A DNA stretch of 64,000 nt from Actinobacteria bacterium IMCC26256 (GTDB taxonomy: Bacteria; Actinomycetota; Acidimicrobiia; IMCC26256): NCBI GenBank assembly GCA_001023575.1, contig CP011489.1, forward strand, positions 2,231,001-2,295,000. Reading direction: 5' to 3'. The translations under genes were made by a program, and so were the position numbers. Shown here piece by piece: positions 21,717 through 27,645 of this stretch (its first letter is position 1; each line of letters opens with the position of its first letter). Under the pieces are notes generated by a model. That model saw nothing but the letters and a program-made list of their open reading frames with translations, did not search any database and was not told where the DNA came from.

Positions 21717-22109
21717 CTACCTTGCCCGCTCGAGAATCTCGACGACTCGCCAACGCTTAAGGCGTGACATCGGGCGAGTCTCAGTGATGCGCACACGGTC
21801 GCCTTCACGTACCTCGTTGTTCTCGTCGTGAGCGTAAAGCTTCGTTGTGCGCTGGACTGTCTTGCGGTACTTGCGGTGACGTACCCGATCGATTACTGCA
21901 ACAACAACCGTCTTGTCCTGCTTCACTGAGACTGCTACCCCTTCACGCACTTTTCGCGCATTACGGGTCTCGCCTGTCTCGGCCTGCTCGGCATTGGTCC
22001 CTGTGGCGTCAATAGCCTCAGGCACTTCAGTATTGACGGTCTCAGTATTGATGGTCTCAGTATTGATGGTCTCAGTATTGATGGTCTCGGTCTGTTCGGT
22101 CTCGCTCAT
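21717..22109 (-). CDS. rpsQ: 30S ribosomal protein S17 with long repetitive N-terminal extension
   Basis: A 130-residue protein; the conserved S17 OB-fold begins only around residue 53 ([20 protein letters not shown]) and includes [19 protein letters not shown] and [20 protein letters not shown]. Typical S17 is 80-90 residues. The first half is acidic and repetitive: four near-copies of a five-residue INTET unit (15-bp repeats at DNA level). The start ATG 22109 overlaps the rpmC stop (ATGA), so the extension is not an artefact of choosing a distant start, though an internal GTG near residue 56 could begin a short form. Confidence 0.93.
22028..22087 (-). repeat. Four 15-bp tandem repeats in the 5' part of rpsQ
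   Basis: The unit CAGTATTGATGGTCT (plus strand) occurs at 22028-22042 (one mismatch), 22043-22057, 22058-22072 and 22073-22087. Translated on the minus strand it gives repeated T-E-T-I-N. The near-identity of the copies at the DNA level indicates recent slippage expansion inside a ribosomal protein gene. Confidence 0.95.
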
Positions 22110-22342
22110 GCGTTCTCCTCGGCAGCCTCTGCCGCTGCGATCTCGCGCTCACGCACGATGGTCTTGATGCGTGCGATGTAACGACGCACATGGGTAATAC
22201 GCGAAGAGTTCTCGACCTGACCGGTGGCTAGTTGAAAGCGCAGGTTGAACTGCTCTTCCTTTGCCTCGGAGAGTTTTGCGAGCAGATCTGCATCGTTGAG
22301 ATCAACGAGCGTGTCTGGTCTGAATTCTTTGATTCCAGCCAT
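22106..22342 (-). CDS. rpmC: 50S ribosomal protein L29
   Basis: A 78-residue L29 of two antiparallel helices: [20 protein letters not shown] and [20 protein letters not shown]. It lies at the tunnel exit next to L23. It overlaps rpsQ (ATGA) and rplP (one base). Confidence 0.96.
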
Positions 22343-22758
22343 CAGGCCTCCTCACGTCTAACTACGAAGCGCGTCTTGATCGGAAGTTTGTGCATAGCGA
22401 GGCGCATGGCTTCGCGTGCAACATCTTCAGTAACTCCTGAGAGCTCGAACATGATGCGACCTGGCTTAACAACTGCGACCCAGTGCTCAGGGTTTCCCTT
22501 GCCAGAACCCATACGGGTCTCAGCAGGCTTCTGAGTAACTGGTTTGTCCGGGAAAATCGTGATCCATACCTTGCCACCACGCTTGATATGCCGAGTCATG
22601 GCAATTCTGGAGGCCTCGATCTGGCGGTTGGTGATCCAACCTGGCTCAAGTGCTTGGATCCCAAAGTCTCCATATGTAACGCGCGATCCACCCTTAGCGA
22701 TGCCGCTCATGCGACCACGCTGGACCTTGCGATGACGAACTCTCTTAGGCATCAACAT
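22342..22758 (-). CDS. rplP: 50S ribosomal protein L16
   Basis: A 138-residue L16. [20 protein letters not shown] and [20 protein letters not shown] are diagnostic, as are [19 protein letters not shown] and [11 protein letters not shown]. It lies near the A-site tRNA. ATG is possible at 22758 or 22752 (MLM). Confidence 0.97.
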
Positions 22759-22766
22759 GGCAGGCC

Positions 22767-23693
22767 TCAGTCCTCGTCGCCGTGGAACTTAGGAGCCTCG
22801 TGGTGCGCTCGTGTGCGACGCTCGATCTCTTCTTCCTCTGCCAAGAGGCGCTCGAGCTCGGGGTCAGCTTCCTTAATAACTGGAGTTGCTTCAAGGCTGA
22901 TGTCATCGGAGACATTCGTTGAGTCGACGGATACTGACTCATCGGCAGGGCGACGACGCCCTCCACCAGCGGTTACTACACGGCGAACTCCAGGGGTACT
23001 CGGAGCCTCACCAGCAGCGAGTGCTGCTTCTTGAGAAATTTTGTCGTCGGAGACCTGCTTGTAAGGAAGGATGTCACCTTTGTAGATCCAGACCTTTACA
23101 CCGATGCGGCCGAATGTTGTCTTGGCCTCAGATGCGCCGTAGTCGATATCGGCACGCAGTGTGTGCAGAGGAACTCGGCCCTCGCGGTACCACTCCTTGC
23201 GGCTCATCTCAGCGCCGCCGAGGCGACCACTTACCTGAACACGAATCCCGAGCGCTCCGGCCTTCATTGCGGTCTGTACAGCGCGCTTCATTGCACGCCT
23301 AAATGAGACGCGCCCTGCGAGCTGGTCTCCAACACCCTGAGCGATTAGCGCAGCATCGAGCTCTGGCTGCTTAATCTCTTGGATGTTGAAGTGAATCTTG
23401 TTGTTGCCGGTGATCTTGAAGAGTCCAGTGCGAAGACGGTCTGCCTCTGCACCGCGACGACCGATGACGATTCCTGGGCGAGCGGTGAATACATCGATTC
23501 GCAGCTTGTCGCCAGAACGCTCGATCTCAATGCGGCTCACCATTGCACGCTCAAGCTGTATGCGCAGGTAGTCGCGGATCTTCCAGTCCTCAATTAGAAA
23601 CTCTGTATACGCCTTATTATCGGCGAACCATCGTGACTTCCAGTCGGTAGTAATACCGAGGCGGAAGCCATACGGATTGACTTTCTGTCCCAT
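22767..23693 (-). CDS. rpsC: 30S ribosomal protein S3 with long C-terminal tail
   Basis: A 308-residue S3. The KH domain carries [14 protein letters not shown] (GxxG loop) around residues 74-87, and the C-terminal domain has [20 protein letters not shown] and KVWIYKGDI. Conserved sequence ends near residue 218. About 90 further residues form a low-complexity tail with a basic GGGRRRP patch followed by an acidic [15 protein letters not shown] helix. Actinobacterial S3 often has such tails; this is on the long side. It starts at the rplV stop (one-base overlap). Confidence 0.95.
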
Positions 23694-24283
23694 TACTCGG
23701 ACGCCTCCGTGGTCTCCGCGACCTCAGACTCAGCCGACTCAGCCACTGGGGCCTCCTCCGGCTCGCTGTGGTCGTGTTCGTGGTCATGATCATGGTCATG
23801 ATCGTGATCGTGGTTGTGCTCGGCCTGAGCCTCTGCTGCACGTGATGCAGCACGTCGGCGCGCACGGTTGGCTTGAGTCGCTCCGCCTCCACCGCGTCGC
23901 TCGGAACGCGCACGGTGAAGCTCAAGAGCCTCATCGGGCATGCGGTCTACGACAATTGTGATGTGGCTGGTGCGCTTGCGAATCTTTGTGGCGCGTCCAC
24001 GAGCACGTGGCCTCCAACGCTTCGCAGTAGGTCCTTCATCGGCCCAGCAGGCGCTGACGAATAGCTCCTCAGGGTCGAGATGATCGTTGTGCTCGGCATT
24101 GGCGATTGCTGAGTTCAGCAACTTGCCAATCTCTTCTGCAGCACCGCGTTCACAGAACTGAAGTACATCGCGAGCCTCGTCAATACCGAGTCCGCGGATG
24201 AGCCCAAGGACTGCACGCACCTTGTTAGGTGCAATGCCGCAGTGGCTCAGGGTTGCTTGTGTGCCTTGAACGTCAGACCTCAT
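23693..24283 (-). CDS. rplV: 50S ribosomal protein L22 with His-Asp-rich C-terminal tail
   Basis: A 196-residue protein whose first 115 residues are ordinary L22: [40 protein letters not shown] and the tunnel-lining hairpin [18 protein letters not shown]. After residue 125 comes a basic linker ([19 protein letters not shown]). Residues 156-172 then alternate His with Asp/Glu/Asn (nine His), followed by an acidic end ([18 protein letters not shown]). The His run resembles metal-binding tails of metal chaperones, not any L22 I know. The DNA of the tail uses a 6-bp repeating pattern. It starts with an ATGA overlap on rpsS. Confidence 0.94.
23768..23818 (-). repeat. His-Asp codon repeat in the rplV tail
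   Basis: This 51-bp block alternates CAC/CAT with GAC/GAT/GAG/AAC codons on the minus strand, encoding residues 156-172 of L22. Synonymous differences between repeat units (CAC and CAT, GAC and GAT) show that the amino-acid pattern is conserved beyond simple DNA slippage. Confidence 0.93.
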
Positions 24284-24558
24284 CGACGCACGACCTTCTC
24301 CTGGCCGGCGTGGAACCGGAAGGTTCGGGTTGGCGCAAACTCGCCGAGCTTGTGACCGACCATCGGCTCGGAGAGGAACACGGGGACGTGCTTACGCCCA
24401 TCGTGAACCGCGATCGTGTGGCCGACCATGTCGGGGGTGATCGTCGAACGGCGGGACCAGGTCTTGATCACCTTGTGCTCGCCGGCCGCGTTTTGACGCT
24501 CGACCTTCAAGAGAAGGTGCTCATCAACAAATGGGCCTTTTTTTAGACTGCGTGGCAT
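24280..24558 (-). CDS. rpsS: 30S ribosomal protein S19
   Basis: A 92-residue S19: [40 protein letters not shown] and [18 protein letters not shown] are all classic. It forms the head of the 30S with S13. It lies seven bases after rplB and overlaps rplV. Confidence 0.97.
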
Positions 24559-24565
24559 GTTTTAA

Positions 24566-25402
24566 CTACCTCCGTGAACCGCGTGTGCGGCGGCGGCGAA
24601 TGATCATCTTGTCGGAGGCCTTGCCTCGCTTGCGTGTTCGTCCTTCAGGCTTACCCCATGGTGAAACAGGGTGACGCCCACCAGAAGACTTACCTTCTCC
24701 ACCACCAAGTGGGTGGTCAACAGGGTTCATAGCTACACCGCGGGTCTGCGGGCGCTTGCCCTTCCAGCGGTTACGACCGGCCTTACCAATTGAGATAAGT
24801 GATGCCTCGGCGTTACCGACAGAACCAACCGTTGCACGGCAGTCAATCGGAACGCGACGCATCTCGGTTGATGGGAGACGAATAGTTGCGTATAGGCCTT
24901 CTTTAGCGACGAGTTGAATTGAAGCGCCAGCGCCGCGACCCAACTTCGCCCCTGCTCCAGGCTTCATCTCAACATTGTGGACAACGGTACCGACTGGGAT
25001 GTATCGCAGAGGTAGAGCGTTTCCTGGGCGAATATCTGCGCCTTGACCACTCTGGAGCATGTCTCCAACCTGGATACCAGCTGGCGCAATGATGTAACGC
25101 TTCTCGCCATCGCGGTAGTGCAGAAGTGCAATACGTGCGTTGCGGTTTGGGTCGTACTCAATCGCTGCAACCTTTGCAGGGATGCTGTCTTTCTCGCGCT
25201 TGAAGTCGATGATGCGGTACTGGCGCTTGTGGCCTCCACCGCGGTGACGCGATGTGGTACGACCATAGGAGTTACGTCCACCGGTACGCGGCTTAGGCGC
25301 GAGTAGCGACTTCTCGGGGCGATCCTTGGTGATCTCGGCGAAATCCGAGACGGTCTGGAACCTGCGCCCTGGGCTTGTGGGTTTACGTTTACGAATGGCC
25401 AT
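24566..25402 (-). CDS. rplB: 50S ribosomal protein L2
   Basis: A 278-residue L2. It has [20 protein letters not shown], the central [13 protein letters not shown] and the signature [20 protein letters not shown], whose histidine is implicated in peptidyl transfer, and it ends with a basic [10 protein letters not shown] tail. The rplW stop is two bases upstream. Confidence 0.97.
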
Positions 25403-25404
25403 AA

Positions 25405-25698
25405 TTAGCTCCCGAAGATCTCAATCCGGTCGCCCTCGGCAAGCGATACCAGTGCGCGCTTTGTCTTTGACCGCTGACCCCAAGTGCCGGTCTTGCGGTT
25501 GCGCTTGCGCTTGCCAGCGCGGTTGACCGTGTTGACGTTTATTACCTTGACCCCGAAGATGGCCTCAACGGCCTGACGGATCTCAATCTTGTTTGCTCCA
25601 GGTGCAACCTCAAACGTATAGACGTTTGCGTCGAGAGCCGCGTAGGACTTCTCCGATACAACTGGGCGAATAATTACATCGCGATGGTCGGCGCTCAT
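25405..25698 (-). CDS. rplW: 50S ribosomal protein L23
   Basis: A 97-residue L23: [40 protein letters not shown] and [20 protein letters not shown]. It sits at the tunnel exit where trigger factor and SRP dock. The start overlaps rplD by four bases. Confidence 0.97.
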
Positions 25699-26423
25699 GA
25701 TGCGTCCTCATCTGTATCTGCGTCAGCACTATCTGAGGCGGTGACGCTCAACTTTGTGCGAGGCGTTGCTGGAGTTGCTGCACTAAGACGCTCGACAGTG
25801 ATAGCGAGAGTTGACTCGCTGAAGACAATCGTGTCGCAGAGCAGTACGTCGTAGGTGTTGATCTCCTCAGGGAGAATTACACGAACTCGGTCACCCAAGT
25901 TTCGGAAGGAGAGCCAGGTCTCGCGCTCCGAGCGGTCTAGGCAGATAGCGAGACGCACTTGGCGCTCACCACTAGCCCGGAGCCCAAGAGCCTCGAGTGC
26001 GCCAATTGCACGCTTGGTTGATGGTGGAGTAAAGCCCCATGCATCAATTACCTGAACCTTGCCCTCTTGAGCACGATCCGATAGAGCTGAGAGAACCGCA
26101 AGTCGCACCATCTTCTTGGGTGTGCGCTGCGTATAGTCACGAGGCTTCGGTCCATGAGCAACTCCACCACCGCGCCAGTGAGGCGCACGTGAAGAACCCT
26201 GGCGCGCACGCCCGGTGCCCTTCTGGGCCCATGGCTTAGCGCCTCCGCCTCGTACCTGAGCACGGGTCTTGGTGCTAGAGGTACCGGAGCGTTTATGCGC
26301 CAACTGTGCAGTAACAACCTGGTGCATTACCGATGCATTTGGCTCAATACCAAAGATGTCATCAGGCAACTCAGCAGTGCCTACTACCTTGCCCTCGATG
26401 TTGCGAACGTCAACGGTACTCAT
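25695..26423 (-). CDS. rplD: 50S ribosomal protein L4
   Basis: A 242-residue L4. The extended tunnel loop includes [20 protein letters not shown] and [22 protein letters not shown]-terminal extension after residue 215 is acidic ([13 protein letters not shown]). It overlaps rplC by four bases. In enterobacteria L4 represses the S10 operon through an mRNA leader; whether the structured spacer upstream of rplC here plays such a role is open. Confidence 0.96.
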
Positions 26424-27064
26424 CGGGCACCTGCTTTGACTGCGTTACGTAGGAATACAAGCCCGCCCTTGGGGCCAGGGACTGCGCCGCGAACAAGGAT
26501 GATTCCCCGCTCGGCGTCGCCCTCTACAACCATGAGATTAAGAGTCGTTGTCTTGGAGTGCCCCATCTGTCCAGCCATCTTCATACCCTTGAAGACGCGA
26601 GATGGTGTGGCGCATGCACCGATTGAGCCGGGAGCACGGTGAGCCTTGTGGTTACCGTGGCTAGCGCCTTGACCCTTGAAGTTGTGTCGCTTCATAACTC
26701 CAGCGAAACCCTTACCCTTCGAGATGCCAGTGACGTCAATAAGCTCGCCGGCCTCAAATAGTTCGGCTGTGATGACCTGGCCGACCGCGTATGCGCTGAG
26801 GTCATCAACACGCATCTCTGCGAGGTGATTCGTGGCCTCGGCATTTGCTGCCTTCAGGTGACCAAGCTCGGGCTTAGATAGTCGACGGGGCTTTGCATCG
26901 CCGAAGGCGATCTGCACAGCCGAGTATCCATCGCGCTCTGGTGTCTTGAGTTGGACGACGCGACAAGGACCAGCCTGGATCACCGTCACCGGTACTACCC
27001 GGTTCTCGGAGTCCCAGACTTGGGTCATGCCGAGCTTTCGCCCTAAAATCCCCTTGGATGCCAT
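26420..27064 (-). CDS. rplC: 50S ribosomal protein L3
   Basis: A 214-residue L3: [20 protein letters not shown] at the start, [19 protein letters not shown]-type text ([20 protein letters not shown]), and [23 protein letters not shown] 27064 ([12 protein letters not shown]) has GAGGAAG a few bases ahead; the frame is open further upstream, but that part is unlike L3. It is separated from rpsJ by a hairpin-rich 254-base spacer, whereas all later genes are nearly contiguous. Confidence 0.96.
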
Positions 27065-27318
27065 TTGGCTTCCTCGCCTACTCTTCTCATGCGAACGCTC
27101 CGCAGGGCGGGTGCCCGGCGGAGCGATCAGTTCGGTTGTGCTCTGCGGGTTCCCCAAAGAATCTTGGGGCTACCGGAGACGTCGGTTTAGCCAGAGTGTT
27201 TAACGCACTAGGGCTGAGTCGGGAGACCCTAGCCGACACCAGTACTAGGTGTCGAATGGAGGCTCCATATCGAGAAAAATCTCCTCGATGTCTTCTTATA
27301 AGTGCTTCTCAGGCTTAG
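27065..27318 (-). promoter_or_regulatory. Hairpin-rich spacer between rpsJ and rplC, candidate structured RNA leader
   Basis: This 254-base gap is unusual inside an operon whose other junctions are mostly 0-20 bases. It holds five consecutive inverted repeats. 27096-27125: CGCTCCGC/GCGGAGCG arms plus inner GGGC/GCCC. 27152-27169: CCCCAA/TTGGGG. 27208-27232: CTAGGG/CCCTAG. 27234-27254: CGACACC/GGTGTCG. 27256-27268: ATGGA/TCCAT. There is no T-run, so these are not simple terminators. No open frame looks coding. Possibilities are a ribosomal-protein autoregulatory site, an RNase processing region or a relocated operon leader. Confidence 0.5.
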
Positions 27319-27645
27319 TTAGACGCCCTGAAGCTTGATCTCGATATCGACACCTGCAGGGAGATCGAGGCGCTGAAGCGACTCAATCGTCTTTGCGGCG
27401 GGGTCAATAATGTCGATTAGACGCTTGTGGATACGCATCTCAAAGTGCTCGCGAGAGTCCTTGTTGACGTGTGGTGAGCGAATAACGGTATAGCGGTGCT
27501 TCTCCGTGGGGAGAGGGACTGGTCCACGGATCTTGGCGCCAGTACGAACAACGGTCTCGACGATCTTCTTCGTCGACTGATCGATGATCTCGTGGTCATA
27601 GGCCTTGAGCCGGATTCGGATTTTTTGCCCCTTGGCGTCAGCCAT
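27319..27645 (-). CDS. rpsJ: 30S ribosomal protein S10 (NusE)
   Basis: A 108-residue S10: [40 protein letters not shown] and [17 protein letters not shown]. It also acts as NusE in antitermination with NusG. It lies 32 bases after tuf and before the structured spacer. Confidence 0.97.

Follow-up and report, generated by a model that had tools for sequence, protein, structure and literature searches.

A conserved structured RNA in front of rplC in the Acidimicrobiia and its likely role as a ribosomal leader independent of S10

The spacer between rpsJ and rplC

The window, by which we mean the whole stretch of 64,000 nucleotides of Actinobacteria bacterium IMCC26256 that was analysed, encodes on its minus strand tuf, rpsJ, a spacer and rplC-rplD-rplW-rplB-rpsS-rplV-rpsC-rplP in this order, as read from the sequence and from the Pfam identities of the products (Table 1). 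The spacer is GC-rich, and its whole sequence is present in one copy in the 2.46-Mb genome. The RNA of the spacer folds with -97.2 kcal/mol, compared with -78.3 +/- 4.9 kcal/mol for 200 dinucleotide shuffles (z -3.82), and none of the shuffles (0/200) was as stable. An earlier note on this DNA had reported five successive hairpins in the spacer and no coding frame; the only open reading frame there, on the plus strand opposite the spacer (27058-27318), is indeed a mechanical one. The note had also supposed that a gap at this place is almost absent from related operons, which is correct outside the class, the rpsJ-rplC spacers of other Actinomycetota being about 10-30 nt long, but does not apply within it. 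Among the rpsJ-containing loci that were gathered from relatives, the closest named records being Acidimicrobiia, those of the class mostly have a spacer of 170-470 nt, or one of 0.9-2.9 kb with other DNA between the two genes. In the neighbouring coding regions, L22 (23693-24283, minus strand) has a long His/Asp/Glu-rich C-terminal extension and the rpsQ-like open reading frame (21717-22109, minus strand) contains an N-terminal repeat.

Table 1. Genes, RNA parts and promoter-like hexamers at the locus (positions in the window)
Feature	Position	Strand	Basis
rpsJ (S10), upstream neighbour; outside the leader's unit in many relatives	27319..27645	minus	Pfam
rpsJ-rplC spacer, 254 nt	27065..27318	minus	
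-35-like hexamer TCGACA	27250..27255	minus	kept in congeners L002 and L004
-10-like hexamer TAGGGT	27226..27231	minus	TANNNT kept in congeners
Leader RNA core, model R1, 104 positions (P1, P2, hinge, P3, tail)	27083..27188	minus	match to covariance model R1 (built partly from this sequence), 86.9 bits; covariation
Conserved 5' flank AACCGACGUC	27178..27187	minus	alignment of relatives
P1, 5' strand	27173..27178	minus	double-sided changes among relatives in all six P1 pairs
P2 hairpin (GCCCC..GGGG), then conserved GGAACC internal-loop segment	27152..27169	minus	covariation, RNAalifold
P1, 3' strand	27141..27147	minus	covariation, covariance model
Conserved hinge GCACAACCGAA	27131..27141	minus	alignments of relatives
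P3 hairpin CGCUCCGC..GCGGAGCG	27096..27125	minus	covariation
Conserved tail UUCGCAUGA (consensus UUCGCRUGA)	27087..27095	minus	alignments
Likely Shine-Dalgarno GAGGA of rplC	27071..27075	minus	sequence read, inference
rplC (L3), at the start of the operon presumed to be regulated	26420..27064	minus	Pfam Ribosomal_L3
rplD, rplW, rplB, rpsS, rplV, rpsC, rplP, remaining checked genes of the presumed regulated operon	22342..26423	minus	Pfam

A three-helix RNA core

Reading the spacers of the relatives side by side revealed, close to rplC, a conserved core that is about 104 nt long. From 5' to 3' it consists of AACYGACGUC, the first strand of P1, a short bulge, the hairpin P2, GGAACC and the return strand of P1, followed by the hinge GCACAACCGAA, a short linker, the P3 hairpin and the tail UUCGCRUGA. 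The internal loop of P1/P2 is asymmetric and conserved, and the P1 helix of the window has a small irregularity. P3 is the hairpin that the earlier note had regarded as the strongest, and its description holds (CGCTCCGC/GCGGAGCG with 8 bp, and 4 further bp beyond a single mismatch). P2 was also among the five reported stems, while P1 had been missed, so that the element is a three-helix RNA and not a series of five hairpins. The other three reported stems are located upstream of the core. Those at about 27207-27231 and at 27235-27256 overlap the -10/-35-like pair and are each mismatched in the congener L002, and the stem near 27268-27289, although retained in the three congeners, is external to the element that is conserved in other genera. 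With two of them broken in a congener and none within the region that can be aligned across genera, these stems were rejected as parts of the element.

The earlier note had proposed to look for compensatory changes in relatives with a covariance model, and these were found. Of the outcomes that the note had named as refuting its idea, a lack of spacer or covariation in relatives and a match to a dispersed repeat, neither was observed. In a plain MAFFT alignment of the cores of 44 relatives, made without structural guidance, an unguided scan of all column pairs placed five P1 pairs, the P2 pair 26-67 and the inner P3 pair 109-132 among its top ranks. Both sides have changed in 16 of the 22 proposed pairs, and standard pairs account for 91.1% of the cells in this alignment, a value that drops to 36-52% if the partners are slid along the alignment. 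Cells with double-sided changes number 133 compared with 42.9 in shuffled alignments, and 133 was reached in 0 of 500 shuffles, which control only in part for relatedness. The inner P1 pairs show five or six standard types each, and this is beyond what a single inherited change can give. In addition, RNAalifold recovered P1, P2 and P3 independently, and in a 100-row alignment, the rows of which were fitted to the model, 92% of the cells are paired and 17 of the 22 pairs have double changes. The core is a conserved RNA secondary structure with covariation. It would hardly be credible to explain it by chance GC-rich hairpins or a dispersed repeat, as the base composition of the spacer and the lack of conservation of three of the five reported stems might suggest. 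Such an origin is refuted by the covariation unmatched in the 500 shuffles, by the presence of both the whole spacer and the exact tail pattern only once in the genome, and by the gene context, which is the same in all 72 loci tested.

While the inner pairs of P3 covary, the sequence of its six outer base pairs hardly varies, and the palindrome CGCTCC..GGAGCG could thus be taken for a DNA operator of a transcription factor. This is very improbable because the distance between the half-sites varies widely with the loop length, because P1, P2 and the inner part of P3 show the covariation of RNA helices, and because the promoter-like signal precedes the palindrome. Pairing of GCACAACCGAA with the tail in a further helix was rejected, as native tails do not pair better with the hinge than shuffled ones (mean pairing of 3.86 for the own tails and 3.99 for shuffled tails).

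Gene context, promoter-like signal and distribution

The gene context was determined with loci that had been fetched by the motif alone, and those with enough DNA downstream were considered testable. In all of these (72/72) the next gene downstream is rplC, which has the same orientation as the motif and is separated from it by 10-175 nt (median 38). In 40 of the 72 loci, for which mostly 1.0-1.8 kb and in one case only 0.3 kb of upstream DNA had been fetched, rpsJ lies upstream at a distance of at least 779 nt or is not contained in this DNA. In those loci that had been selected by rpsJ and have a gap of 0.9-2.9 kb between rpsJ and rplC, the motif stays beside rplC. Because the motif is fixed in front of rplC even if rpsJ is elsewhere, it belongs to the rplC operon and is not an rpsJ element, and it is almost certainly a structured cis-acting leader.

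Upstream of the motif, a pair of -35/-10-like hexamers (the -10 defined as TANNNT, the spacer as 16-19) is present within 170 nt in 67 of 74 loci, compared with a mean of 24 and a maximum of 35 in mononucleotide shuffles; as the 74 loci are not independent, this enrichment is indicative and has no formal probability. The -10-like hexamers are concentrated 41-60 nt before the motif. In the window, TAGGGT follows 18 nt after TCGACA and starts 43 nt before the RNA core. This pair is below the threshold of the general consensus scan and is hence not listed there; in the congener L002 the hexamers are retained as TCGACA and TAGAGT. The promoter-like signal and the fixed position in front of rplC agree with the idea of the earlier note that a structured element at this place would control L3/L4/L23 and the following genes separately from S10.

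The covariance model R1 found the motif in 183 of 395 genomes of the class, corresponding to 100 of 184 genera, and in 159 of the 268 genomes of good quality. There is essentially one locus per genome, and the own genome has a single copy; the second matches that were inspected represent the antisense reading of the palindromic P3. About half of the sampled genomes of the class have no detectable R1 match, and some of these have contiguous rpsJ and rplC genes, others a spacer without the motif. The sequence ACCACCTG is common to three loci of the latter type (L112, L113 and L124, with spacers of 182-335 nt); it precedes the start of rplC by 18-23 nt, and GAGA or GAG-like bases come after it. 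This is possibly a different leader or initiation arrangement; a pattern search for it was not specific. In L112, moreover, rpsJ is directly followed by a perfect hairpin, the arms of which have about 23 bp (GCGTGTGTGAGTGCTGAGTTGCG...). The negative-control loci, taken from Actinomycetota outside the class and from members of the class in which rpsJ and rplC are contiguous, gave no R1 match above 23.2 bits. In a phylum-wide sample, matches outside the class were weak and limited to four genomes (L218, L219, L220 and L221). They correspond to GC-rich hairpins that, as judged by eye, come immediately after apparent stop codons and carry a GCGTTYGCGT or GTGTT tail, a terminator-like form sharing the P3 tail. 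Thus, a presence of the motif in other classes was rejected.

Judging from these hairpins after stop codons, P3 with its tail is similar to a type of terminator in other Actinomycetota. The rplC leader could accordingly be imagined to function without any r-protein, either with P3 acting mainly in termination or pausing (as an attenuator), or as an element that stabilises or processes the mRNA. We regard this as unlikely. There is no U-tract after P3, the tail being UUCGCRUGA, and already the earlier note had correctly stated that none of the hairpins is followed by a T-run; P3 is also missing from the list of the terminator scan. The exact tail pattern is not repeated in the genome and therefore does not belong to a common terminator there. 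Furthermore, a plain terminator would need neither a covarying P1/P2 domain nor a conserved hinge.

Proposed regulation and relation to known leaders

Ribosomal proteins in excess are known to bind to leaders of their own mRNAs, and ribosomal leaders are recognised by their position in the 5' UTR of an r-protein operon together with covariation (PMC7247131). The covarying structure described here is found consistently upstream of r-protein genes, and we consider it probable that it is an autoregulatory leader of this kind. In full, the likely reading is a new ribosomal leader of the rplC operon, with an own promoter and an autoregulatory structured 5' leader, independent of S10. A separate promoter in the spacer would drive rplC-rplD-rplW-rplB-rpsS-rplV-rpsC-rplP with the structured RNA at the 5' end of the transcript. 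An r-protein encoded by the operon and present in excess over rRNA would bind to the leader RNA, and this binding would lower the expression of the protein's own operon independently of S10. The transcription start, the ligand, the direction of the regulation, and its level (transcription or translation) are inferred.

As the likeliest ligand we tentatively suggest L4, because there are precedents. In Escherichia coli, L4 controls both transcription and translation of the S10 operon via the leader (PMC10931766), and a predicted L4 leader is located upstream of rplC-rplD-rplW-rplB in Archaeoglobi (Eckert and Weinberg 2020), L4 also having been assigned by precedent (PMC7247131). L3, L2, L22 or L23 are possible ligands as well. 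S10 is unlikely because rpsJ is outside the unit in many genomes. A mimicry of 23S rRNA by the leader gave no convincing match with the E. coli 23S rRNA or with the own 23S rRNA outside domain I. The unbound leader does not seem to hide the Shine-Dalgarno region of rplC, which is not less accessible in native leaders (0.525 unpaired) than in shuffled ones (0.500), so that a constitutive hiding was rejected.

The 3' strand of P3 and the tail together contain GGAG and, after 7 nt, a conserved GUG or AUG (G or A at the first position in 97 of 100 rows). This arrangement looks like the start of a leader peptide to which rplC would be translationally coupled, but it is hard to imagine such a function given that the frame varies at random with respect to rplC (27/23/22), that the resulting peptides would have between 1 and more than 500 codons, and that they share no sequence. 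A leader peptide starting at the RUG was therefore rejected. Without a conserved frame, the invariant 3' strand of P3 and the tail might instead serve as a decoy ribosome-binding site inside the leader. An operon protein would lock or open P3, and the 30S subunits would thus either stay caught at the decoy or move on to rplC. This is speculative and improbable, and to our knowledge such a mechanism has not been described for ribosomal leaders.

At curated thresholds, Rfam reports only four tRNAs in the window. With Rfam 15, nothing was obtained for the region at E-values up to 10 and nothing for six relatives at E-values up to 1. A survey describing 20 new ribosomal leaders does not contain an rplC-operon leader for Actinobacteria (PMC7247131), and keyword searches of the main texts of other structured-RNA surveys, confined to articles outside subscription and to the texts proper without supplements, gave no mention of one. 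In the literature searched, there was also no leader of an L3/L4/L2 operon for Actinomycetota. The element, with its covariation, single copy and fixed place before rplC, is thus probably a ribosomal leader, with an apparently undescribed structure, and the earlier note was right in suspecting an undescribed structured RNA.

The leader of the S10 operon in E. coli and its relatives is also a structured leader for the same group of genes and is controlled by L4 in E. coli. However, it precedes rpsJ, whereas the element described here precedes rplC and is located 3' of or far away from rpsJ, which is outside the unit. In addition, the regulation of the S10 operon in E. coli includes a Rho-independent terminator, in contrast to P3 with its missing U-tract. 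The Archaeoglobi leader is from Archaea and has the same gene position; it is compared here by its description. The S10 leader of the Firmicutes is located upstream of rpsJ. It is named as an S10-operon leader in the survey of ribosomal leaders and is likened to the present element by name only (PMC7247131). The actinobacterial L31 and L17 leaders, found in the same phylum and also by comparative genomics, belong to other genes, rpmE and rplQ (PMC7247131).

The proposed leader would provide much of a bacterial class with a control of the L3/L4/L2 operon apart from S10. With the sharp P1/P2/P3 model and the constant downstream gene, the identification of the ligand is directly testable. In several genera, rpsJ and rplC are 1.4-2.9 kb apart (e.g. 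in L045, L047, L060, L062, L064, L082 and L104), implying that the S10 operon has been split within the class. The loose linkage of rpsJ, together with the putative separate promoter and leader, suggests a case in which r-protein control was rebuilt after the split of the S10 operon.
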